Positions 1,686-19,387 of a stretch of DNA of 21,211 nucleotides are shown piece after piece; the first letter of the stretch is position 1; the number at the start of each line of letters is the position of its first letter. The position numbers and the translations under genes were made by a program. The notes beneath the pieces are model-generated. The model had not been told where the DNA came from, did not search any database, and was given only the letters and a program-made list of their open reading frames with translations. The DNA comes from a bacterium (GTDB lineage: Bacteria; Dependentiae; Babeliae; Babeliales; UASB340), in the NCBI GenBank assembly GCA_030630075.1, contig DAOVNS010000014.1, forward strand, positions 1 through 21,211. The letters are read 5' to 3'.

Positions 1686-2831
1686 ATGTTAAAAAGATCA
1701 AATCTTTTAGTTGGTTTATTTCTGTGCAGTTTATGTTTTAAGGGAATAGTTTTAACTAAGCCTATAAAAATTGTTTTAGCTGGTGGACCACAAACAGGAA
1801 AAACTACTACCAAAAATAGATTCAAAGAACTTGGATATCAAACAACAGATGAAGCCGCAACTTATCATATAAAGCAAGAATTGAATAAGGGAAACCCTCA
1901 TCCCGCAAATAATCGGGCAACTTTTCAAGAAAATATCAGAAAAACTCAAATGGCATTAGAAGCCGAACTAAAAGAAGAATCGGAAGCGTTTTTAGATCGT
2001 GGAATAATCGATGGGATTGCCTATTACAAACTTGATGGAATAGATACTCCAGAAGAGCTAATATCCTTGGCTCAAGATAATAGATATGACTATGTTTTTC
2101 TTTTCGATTTTGTATCTTCATTAGATTCTTTTAGATCGAATGAAGTAAGTCCAGAAGATTTTGTAACGGCACAAAAAATCCAACAATTTGTAATCGAATC
2201 GTATAAAGAATATGGCTATGAGCCAAGTATGGTTCCAGCAATGTCTGTTGATGATAGAGTTGAATTTATTTTGGATAAAGTTAAAGAATTAAAGAAACAA
2301 AATCCAATAAAACATGTAATAACCGGTGGACCAGGAACAGGAAAAACTACGCTTATTAATGAATTAAAAAAAATGGGACACAAGACTGTTGTAGAAGCTG
2401 CCACATTTATTATTACCGAGGACTTAAAAAATAGTGGAGAAAATCCAAATAAGCACCCAGAAACTTTTCAGGCCAAAGTTGCAATAAAACAAATAGAACA
2501 TGAATCTGTTTTAGATTCTAAAGACGAAGCATTTCTTGATAGAGGAATAGTTGATGGAATTGCGTATTCAAAATTTTATAACAATCCAGCTCCTAAAGAA
2601 TTAACTGATTATGTTGAAAACGAAAGTAATAAATACAGAACTATTTTTATGTTAGATCCTATAGATTCGTATGAAGAAAATGAAGTAAGGCTTGAATCAA
2701 AAGAAGATGCGCAAAAACTTCATGATGCAATTAAGTTGGCATACGAAGATCTTGGATATAATGTAGTAGATGTTCCATTCCTTACTGTTGCGCAAAGAGT
2801 TCAGTTTATTTTGGACAAAATTAAAGCTTAA
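1686..2831 (+). CDS. Exported protein with two tandem NadR/AAA_28-like P-loop ATPase domains
   Basis: The start follows a clear SD (gaggag). Residues 1-24 look like a signal peptide or anchor: a basic MLKRSN, then the hydrophobic LLVGLFLCSLCF. Two homologous P-loop units about 181 residues apart follow. Walker A motifs are GGPQTGKTT (33-41) and GGPGTGKTT (214-222), each followed by an EAAT segment and a strongly conserved FLDRGI(I/V)DGIAY block (102-113 and 283-294), and each unit ends with a similar RV(E/Q)FILDK helix. This pattern fits the AAA_28/NadR-kinase-like P-loop family, which includes nucleotide or nucleoside kinases and TTD14-like GTP-binding proteins. The substrate cannot be inferred. 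Both P-loops are intact, so both units may bind nucleotide. An N-terminal export signal on a P-loop enzyme is odd, because the periplasm lacks ATP; secretion into a host cell is one explanation. Confidence 0.75.
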   Translation: MLKRSNLLVGLFLCSLCFKGIVLTKPIKIVLAGGPQTGKTTTKNRFKELGYQTTDEAATYHIKQELNKGNPHPANNRATFQENIRKTQMALEAELKEESEAFLDRGIIDGIAYYKLDGIDTPEELISLAQDNRYDYVFLFDFVSSLDSFRSNEVSPEDFVTAQKIQQFVIESYKEYGYEPSMVPAMSVDDRVEFILDKVKELKKQNPIKHVITGGPGTGKTTLINELKKMGHKTVVEAATFIITEDLKNSGENPNKHPETFQAKVAIKQIEHESVLDSKDEAFLDRGIVDGIAYSKFYNNPAPKELTDYVENESNKYRTIFMLDPIDSYEENEVRLESKEDAQKLHDAIKLAYEDLGYNVVDVPFLTVAQRVQFILDKIKA

Positions 2832-4766: not shown

Positions 4767-5054
4767 ATGTTTATTATTGCTATAAAATCTATATTAATTG
4801 GTCTGATTTTTGGTCTTTTATACTCGAAACTTTTTATTTATAAGACCAAAAGAATGTTTCCGGTGGGTCAGGAACCGACAAAAGCCAACTATTTTAAGGT
4901 AATTACTCTATCCATTCTAAGTTATCTTCTGTTATTCGGTTTATTTTTGTTTTTGATTTTCAAACTAAATGTAAATGTGTTAATTGTCTTACTAACTTTT
5001 ATCATTTCATTTTGGTGTTATATTTTACTTGTTACCAGTATTAAAAAGGCTTAG
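4767..5054 (+). CDS. AtpI/AtpR-like three-helix membrane protein upstream of atpB
   Basis: From the ATG at 4767 the product is 95 residues with three TM segments (about 2-25, 50-72 and 74-93) and a basic loop (YKTKRMF) after helix 1. The reading frame extends back to a TTG at 4659, but that would place the probable promoter inside the gene, so the ATG is preferred. Its position directly before subunits a and c is where AtpI (c-ring assembly) or AtpR of N-type ATPases is found. The GLIFGLLYSKLFIY pattern of helix 1 resembles the AtpR first helix, but the conserved arginines expected in AtpR helices are not evident. The assignment rests mainly on context and topology. Confidence 0.5.
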   Translation: MFIIAIKSILIGLIFGLLYSKLFIYKTKRMFPVGQEPTKANYFKVITLSILSYLLLFGLFLFLIFKLNVNVLIVLLTFIISFWCYILLVTSIKKA

Positions 5055-5071: not shown

Positions 5072-5101
5072 GGCTTAAAAAGGTAAGGCTTAAAAAAATG
5101 A
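5072..5101 (+). repeat. 15-bp tandem duplication covering the atpB start
   Basis: Units 5072-5086 (ggcttaaaaaggtaa) and 5087-5101 (ggcttaaaaaaatga) match at about 13 of 15 bases. The second unit contains the atpB ATG, and a degenerate third copy may precede them near 5048. A-richness lowers confidence. Confidence 0.45.
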
Positions 5102-5943
5102 AAATATCTATATTCGATGAAAGAGTAATAAAACCGCTCGAAGGTTTTGGTCTTGCTCATCCCTTTTGGAGTATGCACATAGACACTCTGCGCAATACAT
5201 GGATTGCAATGGGAATAATGTTTGTGCTGGTTTTAATTGGCGGTTATTTTTTACGGAAAAAAGTAAACGTTGTTGCATTGATTTTCGAAAAATCAGTTAG
5301 CTTTTTTGATGATTTGTGTAAAGAATCTTTCGGCGGACAATTTAAATATAAATATTTCAGTTTTGTTTCAACAATATTCTTTTTTACTTTAGCCGGATGT
5401 TTGATTGGATTGCTTCCTTATTGCGATGAAACAACAAAAGATCTAAATACAACTTTGGCTCTTGGTTGTCTTAGTTTTTTCTATGTTCAATATCAAAAAA
5501 TACGTATTCATGGTTTTGTTGCATTCTTAAAAGAATTCACTGAGCCATTCGTTGTTTTGCTTCCGTTAAATATAATTGGTGAATTTGCAAAAGTAGCATC
5601 AATGTCTTTTAGGTTATTTGGTAACATTTTGGGTGGTGCAATAATATTTTTAATAATTATTAATGCATTAGAACCGTTCAAGACTTATTTTGTAATATTT
5701 GCGCTATCTACTTTATTTATTTATTGGATTGCAACAAAAATTATAGATTTTCATAAACACAAAATTATAAATATTTTTTTCAAAACACTGTTAATTGTGG
5801 TTTTCTTTCTAGCAAGTACACAAATATTTTTTGGAATATTCGAAGGTTTTGTACAATCTTTTGTTATTGCAATGTTAACAATTACTTATCTTGCTGTAGC
5901 AATTCAAGAAGAAGACAAAGATGAGGGGACTGCGGTATGTTAG
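5098..5943 (+). CDS. atpB: F-type ATP synthase subunit a
   Basis: Subunit a forms the proton or sodium half-channels beside the c ring. The 281-residue product has about six hydrophobic segments. It carries the essential arginine R172 in SFRLFGNILGG, preceded by LPLNIIGEFAK, and the DLNTTLALG motif (115-123), all diagnostic for F-type subunit a. Length is normal. The stop codon overlaps the start of the c-subunit gene (ATGTTAG), implying translational coupling. No genes for b, delta, alpha, gamma, beta or epsilon follow, so the ATP synthase genes are split between loci or the rest is missing; the window cannot decide. Confidence 0.95.
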   Translation: MKISIFDERVIKPLEGFGLAHPFWSMHIDTLRNTWIAMGIMFVLVLIGGYFLRKKVNVVALIFEKSVSFFDDLCKESFGGQFKYKYFSFVSTIFFFTLAGCLIGLLPYCDETTKDLNTTLALGCLSFFYVQYQKIRIHGFVAFLKEFTEPFVVLLPLNIIGEFAKVASMSFRLFGNILGGAIIFLIIINALEPFKTYFVIFALSTLFIYWIATKIIDFHKHKIINIFFKTLLIVVFFLASTQIFFGIFEGFVQSFVIAMLTITYLAVAIQEEDKDEGTAVC

Positions 5944-6896
5944 CTCCAGAATTATTACACTATTTATCTATTGGATTACTTATCGGACTTGGTTCAATTG
6001 GTGCAGGAATTGGACAAGGAATTGCAGCTTTTAGTTCCGTTGGATCTTTAACGCGTCAACCAGCAAGTAACGATCCGATCGTCAGATCTATGGTTATAGG
6101 TCTTGCATTTATCGAAAGTGGTGCAATTTTTGCACTTGTTATAACATTGCTTCTTCTTTTTACCGGTTTGCCGCAAATCACACTTGCAACTGCAATCGCA
6201 GAATTGGGAATTTGTATTGTTGTCGGCGTTGCTGCGTTATCAATAAGTATTGCATCTAGTTTTGCAGTAAAATCAACGGCGCAAGCAATTTCTAGGCAAC
6301 CATTTTTTTCACAAAAAATTATAACTTTAATGTTACTTGCTCAATCACTTATCGAAGCTCCTGTAGTTTTTGCATTTGTTATCGCTTTAATCATTAAAGC
6401 GAATCTAACTGAAACAATGACGATTTTTGTGGGATTAAAGTATCTTGCCGCATCTTTATGTGTTGCTTTCGGTTGCATTGGACCATCTTGTGGGCAGGCT
6501 ATTTTTGCAAATTCATCATGTAAAGCGGCGGGTTTAAACAAAGATGCGTACAGTAAGATTTTTACTTTTTCTGTAATTAACGAAGCTGTTATAGAAACAC
6601 CATTAATTTTTTCGTTATTAGTTTCTATTATGTTAATTTATTTTCCAATTTCAGCGGCAGCTCCTTTAAGTTCATCTCTTAGTTTTTTAGCTGCTGCATT
6701 TACAGTTGGAGTTGGTTCTTTTGGAACAGCCCTTTCTGCAGGATACGTTGGATCCAAAAGTTGTATACAATTGGCACTGGAGCCTGATAATTATTCACTG
6801 TTGTTTCGTTCAACAATACTTGCACAAGCTTTTATTGAATCTTCAGTTATTTATTCACTGATAATCGCATTGTTTTTGATCACAAAGACGTTTTAG
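5937..6896 (+). CDS. atpE: Four-fold fused F-type ATP synthase subunit c (four hairpins in one chain)
   Basis: Bacterial F-type subunit c is normally a single hairpin of 70-90 residues with one ion-carrying carboxylate. This product has 319 residues and eight TM segments in four consecutive hairpins of about 80 residues. Each second helix keeps its glutamate: E60 (AFIESGAIF), E140 (SLIEAPVVF), E220 (AVIETPLIF) and E301 (AFIESSVIY), at intervals of 80, 80 and 81. The cytoplasmic-loop RQP survives in hairpin 1 (40-42) and hairpin 2 (120-122) but not in 3 or 4. The glutamine 33 residues before the glutamate, which binds Na+ in sodium-type c subunits, is present in hairpins 1 (Q27) and 3 (Q187) and replaced in 2 (S107) and 4 (A268). 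Hairpin 4 has the ESS..Y form seen in Na+-binding helices. The ATG overlaps the atpB stop and has a gagggg SD. There is no frameshift. Confidence 0.93.
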   Translation: MLAPELLHYLSIGLLIGLGSIGAGIGQGIAAFSSVGSLTRQPASNDPIVRSMVIGLAFIESGAIFALVITLLLLFTGLPQITLATAIAELGICIVVGVAALSISIASSFAVKSTAQAISRQPFFSQKIITLMLLAQSLIEAPVVFAFVIALIIKANLTETMTIFVGLKYLAASLCVAFGCIGPSCGQAIFANSSCKAAGLNKDAYSKIFTFSVINEAVIETPLIFSLLVSIMLIYFPISAAAPLSSSLSFLAAAFTVGVGSFGTALSAGYVGSKSCIQLALEPDNYSLLFRSTILAQAFIESSVIYSLIIALFLITKTF

Positions 6897-12661: not shown

Positions 12662-12995
12662 GGTATAACCTTCAAATATAACCTCAAAAGAATATGTAAT
12701 TTGCTTATATATTCTTTAAATGCTTAAGCCCAAAAACTCATTTTTATCAAACATTACAAGTGTTGATTTATATCTAAATTTTATATCAATAAGTTTTCTT
12801 ATGCAAAAGCTTCCCCTTTCCAGATTATTTTTTTGCAGTTTTTGCATATATTTCTACAAAAAGCATCTTTTGCGGGGTTTTTCTGGGGCAAGTTTTAAGA
12901 AAATCTATATCTATTTTGTTTACAATCTAAATACACATTTCGTATTATTTAACCAGTTATAAAACATTACAATCATTCTTTTGGGGGAAACTGAG
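12662..12995. other. Intergenic region between divergent exported-protein genes
   Basis: These 334 bases hold the start regions of the F-box-like gene (minus) and the PP2C gene (plus). No RNA gene or repeat is recognised. An 80-codon plus-strand frame here has no SD and a low-complexity product and is not accepted as a gene. A good promoter is present at 12919-12948. Confidence 0.6.
12919..12948 (+). promoter_or_regulatory. Probable promoter of the PP2C gene
   Basis: TTTACA (12919-12924), an 18-bp spacer and TATTAT (12943-12948) lie 47 bp before the ATG at 12996. The leader contains a G5 tract (12983-12987) that also serves as a rough SD. Confidence 0.55.
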
Positions 12996-14198
12996 ATGAA
13001 AAAAAATAATCTAATAATTTTTATTTTATGTATTTTTCAGTTGTTTGTATTTTCTAATCAAAATATAAATGCAATGGCTGAGTATTCGACGTCAAATATA
13101 AAAATGGGAGGTTCGAGTTTAACCAACTTTGGCCAAAGTCATCCGAACGAAGATACTTTTTGTAATATTAAAAATCCTAAAAATTTACCTTTTTTAAAAT
13201 TTTATGCAGGACTTTTTGATGGTCATGGAGGAGGAGATATATCAAGAATCGCCAAACAAAGACTTTATGAAATAATTGAATCTAAACTTTTAAGTCAATG
13301 CCAGGACTTAGAATCCCAACTTGCAAGTTCTCAACTTGTAGGCGTAGAAGAAATCTTAAAATCAAGTTTTATAGAATTAGATCAAGAAATAAAAGATATT
13401 TTATCGCAAGGATGCACTGCATCAATATGTGTATTGATAAACAACGATTTGTATTTAGCGAATGCGGGTGATTCAAGAATTATTGTATCAAGAGATAAAT
13501 CTTTAGATTTTGCTACAACTGATCATAAACCGAATAATCTGATAGAAAAAACTAGAATAGAACAAGAGGGTGGAAGTATCTGGTGTAATGGAACAATGAT
13601 GCTGGATGGCGAGGTTATAAAATATGCAGTTATGCCTGAAGGGGAACAGGTATGGAGGATAGGTCCTCTTGGTGTATCTCGTTCGATTGGCGATTATACT
13701 GATCAAGATGCGATTGATGGTATATACAATTGGCATGACCTTTGCAGAAATAAACTTAGGTCCTCTTATGAAAAAAAAGGTGTTCCGCTGGCTGAATTGT
13801 CTAGAGATAATTTTAGTCTTGCGCAAGATGGTCGAATTGTTGGCTTTTCTTGTATACCGGATGTAAAGCGAATAGAAATAGATTCTTCTTATAATTTTAT
13901 AGTATTAGCAAGTGATGGGCTTTGGGATGTTGTTGGTAACGAAGAAGTAATTGAGTTTGTACAAAATGGTTTAGATGATGGACATGATGTTCAAGAAATT
14001 ACTGATAAATTAGTTCAAATCGCTCAGGATATTGGATCTGGAGATGATATAACCGTAACAATTGTAGAATTTGACTGGAATTTGTCTCGTTCTTTAACAA
14101 AAAAATCTGATCAGAAGAAACCTTTAAGTAGCATTTTAAAATCAAAAGTAGGTTTTTTACATAAAAAACTACCAAAACAGGGTTTTTTTACTTATTGA
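12996..14198 (+). CDS. Exported eukaryotic-type PP2C (PPM) serine/threonine phosphatase
   Basis: A metal-dependent protein phosphatase with all core motifs: NEDTF (E52, D53), GLFDGHGGG (D75, G76), an ANAGDSR strand (155-161), DHKP, GVSRSIGD (226-233), VLASDGLWD with D307, and GSGDDITVTI with D350. These match the two-metal site of human PP2C and argue for an active enzyme. It is a single-domain protein of 400 residues with a basic tail (about 365-400). The ATG at 12996 is preferred to an in-frame TTG 15 bp upstream, because from the ATG the protein begins with a standard signal peptide (MKKNNLIIFILCIFQLFVFS..NAMA). A signal peptide on a PP2C is unusual, since bacterial PP2Cs normally act in the cytoplasm against Hanks-type kinases. 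Action outside the cytoplasm, possibly on host phosphoproteins, is inferred. Confidence 0.92.
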   Translation: MKKNNLIIFILCIFQLFVFSNQNINAMAEYSTSNIKMGGSSLTNFGQSHPNEDTFCNIKNPKNLPFLKFYAGLFDGHGGGDISRIAKQRLYEIIESKLLSQCQDLESQLASSQLVGVEEILKSSFIELDQEIKDILSQGCTASICVLINNDLYLANAGDSRIIVSRDKSLDFATTDHKPNNLIEKTRIEQEGGSIWCNGTMMLDGEVIKYAVMPEGEQVWRIGPLGVSRSIGDYTDQDAIDGIYNWHDLCRNKLRSSYEKKGVPLAELSRDNFSLAQDGRIVGFSCIPDVKRIEIDSSYNFIVLASDGLWDVVGNEEVIEFVQNGLDDGHDVQEITDKLVQIAQDIGSGDDITVTIVEFDWNLSRSLTKKSDQKKPLSSILKSKVGFLHKKLPKQGFFTY

Positions 14199-16705: not shown

Positions 16706-17860
16706 ATGAAGAAGTTTTTTAAATTAATTCCATTACTATTTTTATTTTTTAGTGCATTTGCATCAAATGTGAATTGGACTTTATTTTCTTATATGAAAGC
16801 CAATAATGATTTGAGGGAAGAAACTAATAGAGCAATTGACAAAATGGCAAATGCTTGTAAGTGGTACATGACACCGGAAACATCCGCCAAAATAATTGTA
16901 GAGGTTGTTCTCGATGATGCTGTTCCAGATAGAACCTATTTGTATGATTTAACTGAAAATGGAAAAATTCTTAAAGATTCATTTGATCATGGAGATACAC
17001 AGCAAGAAATTGAAGATTTGGGAGTCTGGGTTAAAGCAAATGCTCCTGCAGAAAGGTATAGTTTTGTTATTACGGGGCATGGAAATGGAATAGCTGGAGT
17101 TATTGGATTGGATTTACCTGACCTTAAAAGTGCTGTTGAATCGGTTGTGACATCCTTGGGTAAGAGTTTGGATTTGATGACTTTTGGTGATTGTTCGATG
17201 GGGCTATTAGAGGTTGCCTATGAATTTAAAGATTATGTAGATTTTTGCATGGCAAGCGAAAATACAACATACATATCAAGTTATTCTTTATATAAGGCAA
17301 CGGAAGCAATAATACTAAATAACAATATAATTAGAGCATTAGATATTAGCAGTATTACTACTCGAGAATTAATCGATGATATTTCGAAAGAGGGAAGAAC
17401 TATATCTTCTGTTAAATCAAATGTATTATATCAATTGGTTAATATTATAAATAACTTTTCAAGTCAAATTTTGGCATGTGCAGTACAAGAGCCAATTGAA
17501 ATAAAAACAGCGCTTCTAGAAGCTAGATCTTTATGTACTCAATTTACCAAAGAAACTAATATTGATTTATATGATTATTGTTTAAAATTAGTGGATTTGT
17601 TGGAGGTATTAATAGAAAGTGCTCAAGGAAGTTATTTAAATAATTTAAGAGATACCGTCAAATTATTAAAAGAAATTATGGCAATACTTCCAGAAATTGT
17701 ATGCACCGAAATCCATGGTCCAAAGAGATCAAATGTACATGGTTTAGCAATATATTGCCCAACAGTTATTGGTTCTATTAATGCAGAGTATTATACTTTA
17801 GATTTTGTAATAGATAATCCTAATGGCTGGATAAAAGTTTTGGAATTTATGTTTCCATAA
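16706..17860 (+). CDS. Exported clostripain-family (C11) cysteine peptidase, short form
   Basis: A caspase-fold (clan CD) peptidase of 384 residues. The signal peptide is MKKFFKLIPLLFLFFSAFAS. The catalytic histidine is H125 in FVITGHGNG and the cysteine C163 in DLMTFGDCSMGLLEVAYEF, corresponding to the NHG and DACLMG motifs of clostripain. The C-terminal HGLAIYCP is the HGxxIYxP block of the family. It lacks the G-I-x-Y-D-D/LT segment and linker between histidine and cysteine, where clostripain-type enzymes are cut during activation and which the neighbour retains. It may therefore act without processing or have altered specificity; dyad residues look intact. It is a tandem paralogue of the next gene. 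Confidence 0.85.
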   Translation: MKKFFKLIPLLFLFFSAFASNVNWTLFSYMKANNDLREETNRAIDKMANACKWYMTPETSAKIIVEVVLDDAVPDRTYLYDLTENGKILKDSFDHGDTQQEIEDLGVWVKANAPAERYSFVITGHGNGIAGVIGLDLPDLKSAVESVVTSLGKSLDLMTFGDCSMGLLEVAYEFKDYVDFCMASENTTYISSYSLYKATEAIILNNNIIRALDISSITTRELIDDISKEGRTISSVKSNVLYQLVNIINNFSSQILACAVQEPIEIKTALLEARSLCTQFTKETNIDLYDYCLKLVDLLEVLIESAQGSYLNNLRDTVKLLKEIMAILPEIVCTEIHGPKRSNVHGLAIYCPTVIGSINAEYYTLDFVIDNPNGWIKVLEFMFP

Positions 17861-17959: not shown

Positions 17960-19387
17960 ATGAAAAAGTTATTTAAATTAATTCCAACAATTTTTTTATC
18001 ACTTAGTTTATTTGCAAATCAAGCAGAGTGGACCTTTGGTGCATACATGCAGGGGGATAATAATCTGGATCCTTCTTTAGATTTTATTATTAGTCAGATG
18101 ATTGCAGGATGCAAGATGGCGTATATGGATCCAGATGCATCAGTTAATATAATTGCACAAGTTGATTTCCAAGAAGATAAAAGAACTTGGAGATTTAGAA
18201 TAACTGCCGGTGGAAGAATAGAAGATGGTTCAATTAGTACTGAAATGGGTATGAATCCAGCTCAAGAGATAATCGATTTTACATTGTTTTTAAAACAAAA
18301 CTTTGATGCAAAAAAATTTGCATTGATGCTCTATAATCACGGTAGTGGAATAGAAGATTATAAAGATGACAGTGTAAGAGGCTTTGATATAAACAAAGCA
18401 GAGAATTTAATTCTAAAAAGTCTGGACTTAAAAAGTTTGGACTTAAATAACTTTAAAAGTTTTAACTTCAAAAAAACAGAAGATTTAGAAAAAGTTGATT
18501 TAAAAAAAGAAAACATAGAATCAAAAGAAGAAGTTGCTTCTGAAAAAAACAAAGAAGTTACAAAAGGTATTTTGTATGATGATTCTCAAAACACATGTTT
18601 AACAAATCCTGCAATGAAAAGGGCGTTTTTGGGAATTAAAGATATTTTAGGTAAGAAATTAGATTTATTAATTTTAGACGCATGTTTGATGTCGATGTTA
18701 GAAGTTCATTATCAAATTAAAGATAGTGTGCAATATTGTGTTTCTTCTCAACAAATTAAATATTCTGGAAGTTGGAATTATACGGATGTAATTTCAATGT
18801 TAATTCAAAATTCAAGTTTTTTTGATGGTTTAGCATTTGGGAATTTTGTTGTAGATTTTTATCAGCATAATGGTTTTTACAAAGAACGTACTGCATCATG
18901 TATTAATTTAAGTTCTGTTAAAAGATTAAAAAATAATTTAAATAATGTTTCGAATCAGATTCTTGAATGTGCAAGATATAATCGCAACGGCATAGTTGGT
19001 GCAATCAGGCAAGCAAGAAACTTGTGTGTTCCGTTTTATAATAAAGATTACATTGATTTATATAATCTTTATCAAACACTAAAAAATCAGTTTGAAGTTT
19101 TATATGAACAAGATGAAGATGCAACTATTACATCGTGTTGTGGTTTAATAGATAACACTGCTAAATATTTACAAAGCTTGCGGGATGCAATCGAATTACT
19201 AAATGCAGGTCTGATTTTATTTCCACAAATTGTTTGTTCAAATGCTGCTGGTCCGGATAGGCAAGATGCCCACGGATTATCAATATATTTTCCTGCTCTT
19301 GAAGATTCAAAAATACACCGTTCTTACTACGATACGGATTTTGCAAAAGATTGTAACTGGATAAAGGTGTTAAAATTATTTTTTTAA
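17960..19387 (+). CDS. Exported clostripain-family (C11) cysteine peptidase, long form
   Basis: A 475-residue protein with a signal peptide (MKKLFKLIPTIFLSLSLFAN), the AYMQGDNNLD start typical of the family, H127 in LYNHGSG, then GILYDDSQNTCLT (203-215) and the nucleophile C242 in LLILDACLMSMLE. The C-terminal block is HGLSIYFP. Between H127 and GILYDD lies a Lys/Glu-rich insert of about 55 residues (146-202) beginning with pentad-like repeats SLDLK-SLDLN-NFK-SFNFK, at the place where clostripain-type zymogens are cleaved. The insert could be an activation linker. The protein is clearly paralogous to the preceding gene, but overall divergence is high compared with the nearly identical leaders. 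Confidence 0.9.
   Translation: MKKLFKLIPTIFLSLSLFANQAEWTFGAYMQGDNNLDPSLDFIISQMIAGCKMAYMDPDASVNIIAQVDFQEDKRTWRFRITAGGRIEDGSISTEMGMNPAQEIIDFTLFLKQNFDAKKFALMLYNHGSGIEDYKDDSVRGFDINKAENLILKSLDLKSLDLNNFKSFNFKKTEDLEKVDLKKENIESKEEVASEKNKEVTKGILYDDSQNTCLTNPAMKRAFLGIKDILGKKLDLLILDACLMSMLEVHYQIKDSVQYCVSSQQIKYSGSWNYTDVISMLIQNSSFFDGLAFGNFVVDFYQHNGFYKERTASCINLSSVKRLKNNLNNVSNQILECARYNRNGIVGAIRQARNLCVPFYNKDYIDLYNLYQTLKNQFEVLYEQDEDATITSCCGLIDNTAKYLQSLRDAIELLNAGLILFPQIVCSNAAGPDRQDAHGLSIYFPALEDSKIHRSYYDTDFAKDCNWIKVLKLFF
18419..18472 (+). repeat. In-frame 15-bp repeats in the long C11 peptidase gene
   Basis: Units 18419-18433 (SLDLK) and 18434-18448 (SLDLN) are nearly identical, followed by a shortened and a diverged unit (NFK, SFNFK) up to 18472. 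Confidence 0.65.

Follow-up and report, generated by a model that had tools for sequence, protein, structure and literature searches.

A four-hairpin F-type c subunit, conserved across the Dependentiae, points to a new form of hybrid ATPase rotor

Introduction

In a 21,211-nucleotide stretch of DNA from a Dependentiae bacterium (contig DAOVNS010000014.1 of assembly GCA_030630075.1; hereafter the window), the gene that follows atpB encodes four c-subunit hairpins in a single chain. An earlier note on this DNA described the product as a fourfold fused F-type c subunit in which no ion-binding carboxylate is lost, and predicted rings with a stoichiometry in multiples of four unless single c subunits are also made. 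The locus thus raises the question of whether this fused gene (c4) is genuine, whether it is the only c gene of its enzyme, and what kind of rotor its product would build.

Results

The window encodes an intact four-hairpin c subunit

The c4 frame runs through 319 codons without an internal stop, and a Pfam search with ATP-synt_C matched its product in four stretches, at 136.6 bits against a cut-off of 24 (Table 1). Direct reading bore out the description given in the earlier note: each hairpin carries one glutamate, at the four positions that had been named, RQP is found in loops 1 and 2 only, the TM1 glutamine in hairpins 1 and 3 only, and hairpin 4 reads E301-S302-S303..Y306, in support of the note's view that the hairpins have specialised. 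The proposed coupling to atpB also held, the start of c4 overlapping the a-subunit gene by 7 nt. With its ATP-synt_C matches, a TM2 acid in every hairpin and an F-type a subunit adjoining, window c4 belongs with the F-type c subunits.

Table 1. Coordinates of the c4 locus and of other genes in the window
Feature	Positions	Strand	Basis or remark
Protein with two tandem AAA_28 stretches	1686-2831	+	
Small hydrophobic protein 5' of a; start codon inferred	4767-5054	+	Position upstream of a
atpB, a subunit (stator ion channel), 281 aa, conserved Arg in SFRLFGN	5098-5943	+	PF00119, E 1.7e-33
c4, four-hairpin F-type ATP synthase c subunit, 319 aa	5937-6896	+	PF00137, 136.6 bits
c4 hairpin 1 (residues 4-75): Q27, loop RQP 40-42, E60 (6114-6116), S61	5946-6161	+	Model helices
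c4 hairpin 2 (residues 83-155): S107 at Gln position, loop RQP 120-122, E140 (6354-6356), A141	6183-6401	+	Model helices
c4 hairpin 3 (residues 163-235): Q187, without RQP loop, E220 (6594-6596), T221	6423-6641	+	Model helices
c4 hairpin 4 (residues 243-316): A268 at Gln position, E301 (6837-6839), S302, Y306	6663-6884	+	Model helices
PP2C-type protein phosphatase	12981-14198	+	N-terminus signal-peptide-like by eye
Clostripain-family (Peptidase_C11) protein	16706-17860	+	Adjacent to the next
Clostripain-family (Peptidase_C11) protein	17960-19387	+	Adjacent to the preceding

An AlphaFold2 model, computed from an alignment of 120 sequences, gave four long, clear hairpins (pLDDT 95, pTM 0.91). 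Comparison with the nearest relative (locus L001, 82% protein identity) yielded a dN/dS of 0.077, with values of 0.044-0.135 for the four quarters taken separately and synonymous sites near saturation; purifying selection acts on the c4 gene.

The fused gene is found throughout the Dependentiae

A protein search of 5.8 billion proteins returned 179 c4 homologues. Among the 120 of these matches that were listed, all were 314-329 aa long except one of 281, and the minority with a source named more closely than "bacterium" came from Dependentiae, Babeliales or candidate division TM6. At the genome level, a c4 frame, defined by a length of 280 aa or more and three or more matches to a hairpin profile built here, was present in 96 of 101 Dependentiae genomes, all 96 giving letters at the four acid positions; the five genomes without it also had no PF00119 match, so that the c4 locus may be absent from those assemblies. 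In 96 of the 97 c4 loci, counting that of the window, an a gene in the same orientation lies immediately 5', and the two genes overlap in 54 of the 96, judged by the first in-frame start. The sole exception is genome G020, whose contig stops about 0.2 kb upstream of c4.

The earlier note had proposed checking for an assembly artefact and for relatives with a single-hairpin c at the same locus, and neither was found: no single-hairpin c occupies the c4 locus in any of the 96 Dependentiae genomes that have it, and a collapse of separate c genes during assembly is very unlikely because of the uniform length of the listed homologues and the presence of the frame in nearly all genomes.

Hairpin 2 lacks its acid in most of the phylum

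The claim that no carboxylate is lost stood for the window, which reads EEEE, and for its closest relatives, and failed for the family as a whole, in which at least one hairpin is acid-less in 74 of 97 members. Hairpin 1 keeps its acid in all 97 proteins (93 E, 4 D), hairpin 3 in 92 (E) and hairpin 4 in 96 (56 D, 40 E; the remaining one G); hairpin 2 does so in only 25 (E), the other 72 having Q (62), M (7), V (2) or G (1). Summed from these data, 23 proteins have all four acids, 70 have three and 4 have two.

In the c4 tree the window's clade (25 rows) is sister to a clade of 72 rows. All four acids are present in 22 of the 25, while hairpin 2 of the sister clade has Q, M or V in 71 of the 72, G078 alone keeping E. 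Sister-clade hairpin 2 has Q at the acid position in 62/72, T beside it in 65/72 and Ser at the TM1 Gln position in 64/72. Among the matches listed from the protein search (120 of 179 homologues), hairpin 2 was acid-less in 15 and hairpin 3 had Q in 27.

Two further features of the sister clade were observed. Aspartate replaces glutamate in hairpin 4 of 55 of its 72 members, with hairpins 1 and 3 having glutamate in 69/72 and 70/72, and the TM1 Gln position of hairpin 1 is occupied by glutamine in 40/72 and by glutamate in 17/72, the latter reminiscent of two-carboxylate Na+ rotors.

A second c gene encodes a single hairpin

The predicted stoichiometry in multiples of four does not follow for these bacteria, since the exception that the earlier note had itself named applies: a separate single-hairpin c gene (c1) was found in 96 of the 101 genomes and alongside c4 in 92 of the 96 that bear c4, which rules out c4 as the only c gene for most relatives. 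The first eight genomes had exactly five hairpins each, four in c4 and one in c1, and in the eight genomes examined for location the two genes were on different contigs or at distant positions. Four c4-bearing genomes are without a confident c1 (G059, G061, G065 and G067), perhaps through genome incompleteness. As in its relatives, c1 is presumably encoded in the window's own organism.

The c1 locus looks like that of an ATPase subunit. A delta gene lies downstream of c1 in 83 of 88 loci, and in the remaining five the contig ends within about 1 kb. At locus L010, c1 is followed 3' by a b-like ORF (PF00430, 20.9 bits, below cut-off), then by another small ORF that has no Pfam assignment, and finally by delta (OSCP, 75.4 bits); the stronger PF00006 match, taken as alpha, lies no more than 2.6 kb after c1 in 8/8 genomes. 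The 95 c1 sequences examined (that of G080 was seen as a match and left out) keep the acid in 95/95 and Tyr70 in 80/95, and median pairwise identity over 91 genomes is 50% for c1 against 38% for c4.

With regard to the Na+ signature Gln32/Glu65/Ser-Thr66, Dependentiae c1 has the glutamine in 87/95 and the Ser or Thr in 85/95, while window c4 has the glutamine in two of its hairpins. According to the available text of PMC2359735, the Na+ enzymes of Ilyobacter and Enterococcus take Gln and Glu from one hairpin and the hydroxyl from its neighbour. If the Enterococcus order is as we read it, with the hydroxyl of the first hairpin serving the second, only site 1 of window c4 would be complete, together with the Ser/Thr of the preceding chain; sites 2 and 4 would be without Gln, and site 3 without a hydroxyl (A141).

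Both c genes belong to one F-type ATPase

The a subunit, whose conserved Arg is present in 40 of 40 aligned sequences, gave a single PF00119 match in 95 of 101 genomes, with partial extra matches in G027 and G034; gamma gave a single PF00231 match in 91 of 101, with short extra fragments in G067 and G094. The a-subunit match of G003 (G003:C66:14698-15402, locus L196) spans one TAG. No second full-length a or gamma was found among the 101 Dependentiae genomes. For PF00006, 8/8 genomes had two strong matches, which we take to be alpha and beta, besides a weaker one that is probably Rho; G004 and G006 had one additional match below cut-off.

Two complete ATPases are ruled out, there being no second full-length a or gamma, and a V/A-type rotor is rejected, on the families searched, from the PF00119 a subunit, the PF00231 gamma in relatives and a PF00006 pattern that fits alpha, beta and probably Rho. 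With a single a and a single gamma, both c proteins have to work with the same stator and the same F1, and one ATPase with two c genes suggests a mixed ring like that of Acetobacterium woodii.

Upstream of a, the small hydrophobic protein of the window is perhaps an AtpI-like assembly factor, judged by its position. Short ORFs occupy this place in 74 of 97 c4 loci (10 of 84 having been left out as longer than 145 aa), and 72 score with a profile made from the same 74. These ORFs are short and divergent, and none of four examples had a Pfam match above cut-off. At one locus in another phylum (L232, described below), the ORF at the same place is ATP-synt_I. N-ATPases encode an AtpR protein upstream of a; the four upstream ORFs compared with Pfam, again short and divergent, gave no AtpR match, and an OSCP/delta gene is present.

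Fused F-type c subunits occur in other phyla, usually with acids lost

The earlier note had placed fused hairpins mainly in V/A-type rotors and a few Na+ enzymes, which is narrower than the databases show: fused F-type c proteins of two to five hairpins occur outside the Dependentiae, a two-hairpin example being P0134, named Serpentinicella. Among the matches listed (120 of 391), 118 were multi-hairpin c proteins (P0153-P0270), of which 97 have three hairpins, 9 four and 12 five; their sources include Cloacimonadota (three hairpins), Deltaproteobacteria/Thermodesulfobacteriota (four) and, for the five-hairpin form, other bacteria. In 114 of these 118 listed proteins the acid is absent from at least one hairpin (e.g. 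EQE, EQQ, EQQE or EQQQE), Q standing at the acid position in 185 of their 387 hairpins and in 62 of the 96 in four- and five-hairpin proteins. All acids are kept in three listed three-hairpin proteins (EEE) and one with five (P0240, EEEEE). P0240 is a five-hairpin F-type c of 434 aa, with all five glutamates present.

We searched 374 genomes, 273 of them outside the 101, and picked 20 regions from 18 genomes for their many matches or long frames. At 10 of these 20 loci, a proportion that is no frequency because the regions were hand-picked, the genes for a, a fused c and a single c follow one another in that order (L226, L227, L228, L230, L232, L234, L235, L240, L242 and L244), the fused gene having four hairpins in three loci, three in six and two in one. 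At one further locus, where the contig ends, a single c accompanies a fragment of a fused one, and the remaining nine are arranged otherwise. In the fused proteins of the ten hybrid operons, 24 of 32 hairpins are acid-less. The fused chains of L226 (GQQQ) and L235 (SQQ) have no acid left.

The Dependentiae subunits resemble those of the hybrid operons. Dependentiae a has a mean identity of 35% to hybrid-operon a against 25% to ordinary a (24/24 rows), and Dependentiae c1 one of 40% to hybrid-operon c1 against 30% to ordinary c (95/95 rows). Moreover, an ACE motif behind the TM1 Gln region is found in 79/95 Dependentiae c1 and 11/11 hybrid-operon c1, versus 0/8 ordinary c. The TM1 position itself is Glu (GEG) in 11/11 hybrid-operon single c subunits versus Gln in most Dependentiae c1, so that the ion sites of the two differ. 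In a tree of a subunits the Dependentiae were represented by 24 rows, from the window and from 23 genomes (24 had been picked, of which G020 yielded no sequence); ordinary a and Dependentiae a were each set apart (support 99 and 99) and the hybrid group was placed with a support of 18, which leaves its common descent with Dependentiae a unproven. The tree of hairpins that the earlier note had suggested was built on a chosen subset (188 hairpins, 69 columns) and is weakly resolved on whether Dependentiae c4, Cloacimonadota c3 and the other c4 and c5 go back to one shared fusion. Most simply, the enzyme of the Dependentiae would descend from an operon of a, fused c and single c which was later split between the two c genes.

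Discussion

A probable mixed rotor on one stator

The data above show that the four-hairpin c4 is genuine and phylum-wide, and we regard it as a new form of the hybrid F-type rotor. As to how it works, we consider it likely that c4 and c1 form a mixed ring turning against one a subunit, in the manner of A. woodii, in an enzyme that probably runs mainly in reverse. In such a rotor c4 would be a subunit of the cell's only F-type ATPase; its four hairpins, joined by short linkers, would stand next to one another and make up one segment of the c-ring, and copies of c1, whose own locus precedes b-like genes, delta and alpha, would complete the circle. In the window's clade all four c4 hairpins should usually be able to carry an ion, while in most of the phylum hairpin 2 could not, which should lower the number of ions per turn. 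Co-assembly of c4 and c1, their ratio, the ion carried and the direction of rotation are points that we infer.

The direction is suggested by the gene content of these bacteria. A TLC ATP/ADP translocase is present in 98 of 101 genomes, and COX1 in one, as a 69-aa frame at a contig end; with translocases present and COX1 lacking, the enzyme probably runs mainly backwards, and imported ATP would be spent on ion pumping to hold the membrane potential. A depletion of electron transport components in Dependentiae has been reported (PMC7507113, in the text available), and reverse operation has already been proposed for the ATP synthase of Chromulinavorax (PMC6561590, likewise).

Other ways of using the two genes can be weighed against the mixed ring. 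It is rather unlikely that the working ring consists of c4 only, in two, three or four chains (8, 12 or 16 hairpins), with c1 as a minor or conditional alternative: c4 does lie immediately 3' of the sole a gene, and four c4-bearing genomes are without a confident c1, but c1 accompanies c4 in all the others, never lacks its acid and precedes delta. Moreover, c1 is the better conserved of the two, and fused and single c genes are neighbours in the operons of other phyla. That same neighbourhood speaks against a pair of homomeric rings, one of c4 and one of c1, that would take turns on a shared a and F1 like two gears. Separate loci would permit separate control, and one a with one gamma would serve both rings; a single stator and a single central stalk would nevertheless have to accommodate both, and the portions of the literature available to us offered no precedent, so that we regard such an exchange as very unlikely.

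We give the least credence to a ring made of c1 with c4 serving elsewhere, with or without a, for instance as a channel or an assembly scaffold. The acid-less hairpin of c4 in most of the phylum could be understood in this way, but the sole a gene found is joined to c4, the acids of hairpins 1, 3 and 4 are kept in nearly all members, the gene is under purifying selection, and the fold of its product matches chains of hybrid and V-type rotors. The mixed ring leaves two points of its own. Because c4 and c1 are at different loci, their balanced expression is not assured. In addition, when ten c hairpins were fused by engineering into one ring (c10), changing E to Q in one of them abolished ATP synthesis (PMC8809890, as far as its available text goes), so that the passage of acid-less hairpins past a is left unexplained by the mixed-ring model.

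Gain or loss of the hairpin 2 acid

The number of ions moved per ATP rises with the number of sites at work in each turn and falls when acids are lost. Hairpin 2 is acid-less in 12 of 12 c4 proteins from outside the phylum, and at least three changes at this hairpin are needed on the tree that includes them. This tree is unrooted, and alone it cannot tell acid gain from loss; if the 12 outsiders are a true outgroup, a regain of the acid in the window's clade costs three changes and its retention four by our own count, which assumes outgroup rooting and hairpin-by-hairpin homology with the outsiders. One tentative idea, which we hold to be possible rather than likely, is that c4 acts as an evolvable gear, in which one point change in hairpin 2 toggles an ion site and the ions per turn vary by lineage on an otherwise fixed mixed ring, the window's clade having regained acids lost in fused ancestors.

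Significance

Rings that combine fused and single c subunits have been described in acetogens. Should c4 and c1 assemble together, an entire host-dependent phylum would use such a mixed rotor, with more fused hairpins and more working sites than in acetogens. Within the Dependentiae, matched genomes either have or lack an inactive hairpin, and comparing them could show how a rotor gets past a position that has no carboxylate and in what way the ion-to-ATP ratio changes over evolution in an ATP-importing cell; given the E-to-Q effect in engineered c10, as reported in the text available, this natural tolerance of silent hairpins is worth testing. Since fused genes are annotated simply as subunit c, hybrid F-type rotors may be commoner than has been noticed, as the operons of a, fused c and single c suggest.

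Comparison with known rotors

Among the matches listed from the open-access literature, covered as titles and abstract openings, we found no report of a four-hairpin F-type c or of a Dependentiae c-ring. The best Foldseek match of c4 in the PDB was 4bem_J (E 6.6e-5), the only match under 0.001, followed by V-type c chains. This chain is the fused c1 of the hybrid ring from Acetobacterium woodii, in an entry of nine single-hairpin chains and one fused chain; it was also the top PDB sequence match of a c4 profile and of one Dependentiae c1, in scores of a kind that favours fused chains.

Natural and engineered fusions elsewhere resemble c4 in part. The fused c proteins of Cloacimonadota and Deltaproteobacteria/Thermodesulfobacteriota likewise carry tandem ATP-synt_C hairpins in one chain, but loss of acids is usual there, as in the great majority of those listed. 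Archaeal A-type c/K subunits are fused as well (three hairpins in Methanocaldococcus, 13 in Methanopyrus), and that of Methanopyrus retains all its ion-binding residues according to the available text of PMC2359735; these, however, are A/V-type enzymes, unlike the F-type a and gamma of the Dependentiae. In the engineered single-chain c10 of Bacillus PS3, joined c hairpins give a working F-type ring (PMC8809890, in its available text), although this is a laboratory construct with the entire ring in one chain.

The closest counterpart is the hybrid rotor of A. woodii, which, as far as the genes of the Dependentiae relatives tell, shares with them an F-type enzyme with fused and single c genes and one F1Fo set. 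The silent hairpin of the acetogens A. woodii and C. aceticum reads Q....QT (PMC7911925, in the text available), and sister-clade hairpin 2 is like it in its Q at the acid position and the adjacent T, and unlike it in having Ser at the TM1 Gln position in most members. The two rotors also differ in that c4 has four hairpins where the fused c of A. woodii has two, in that 93 of 97 Dependentiae c4 keep three or four acids, and in that window c4 has no acid-less hairpin at all, unlike most of its family. Finally, the fused and single c genes stand at separate loci in the Dependentiae, in contrast to their adjacency in ten loci of other phyla, and the Dependentiae form is phylum-wide, in bacteria equipped with ATP/ADP translocases.
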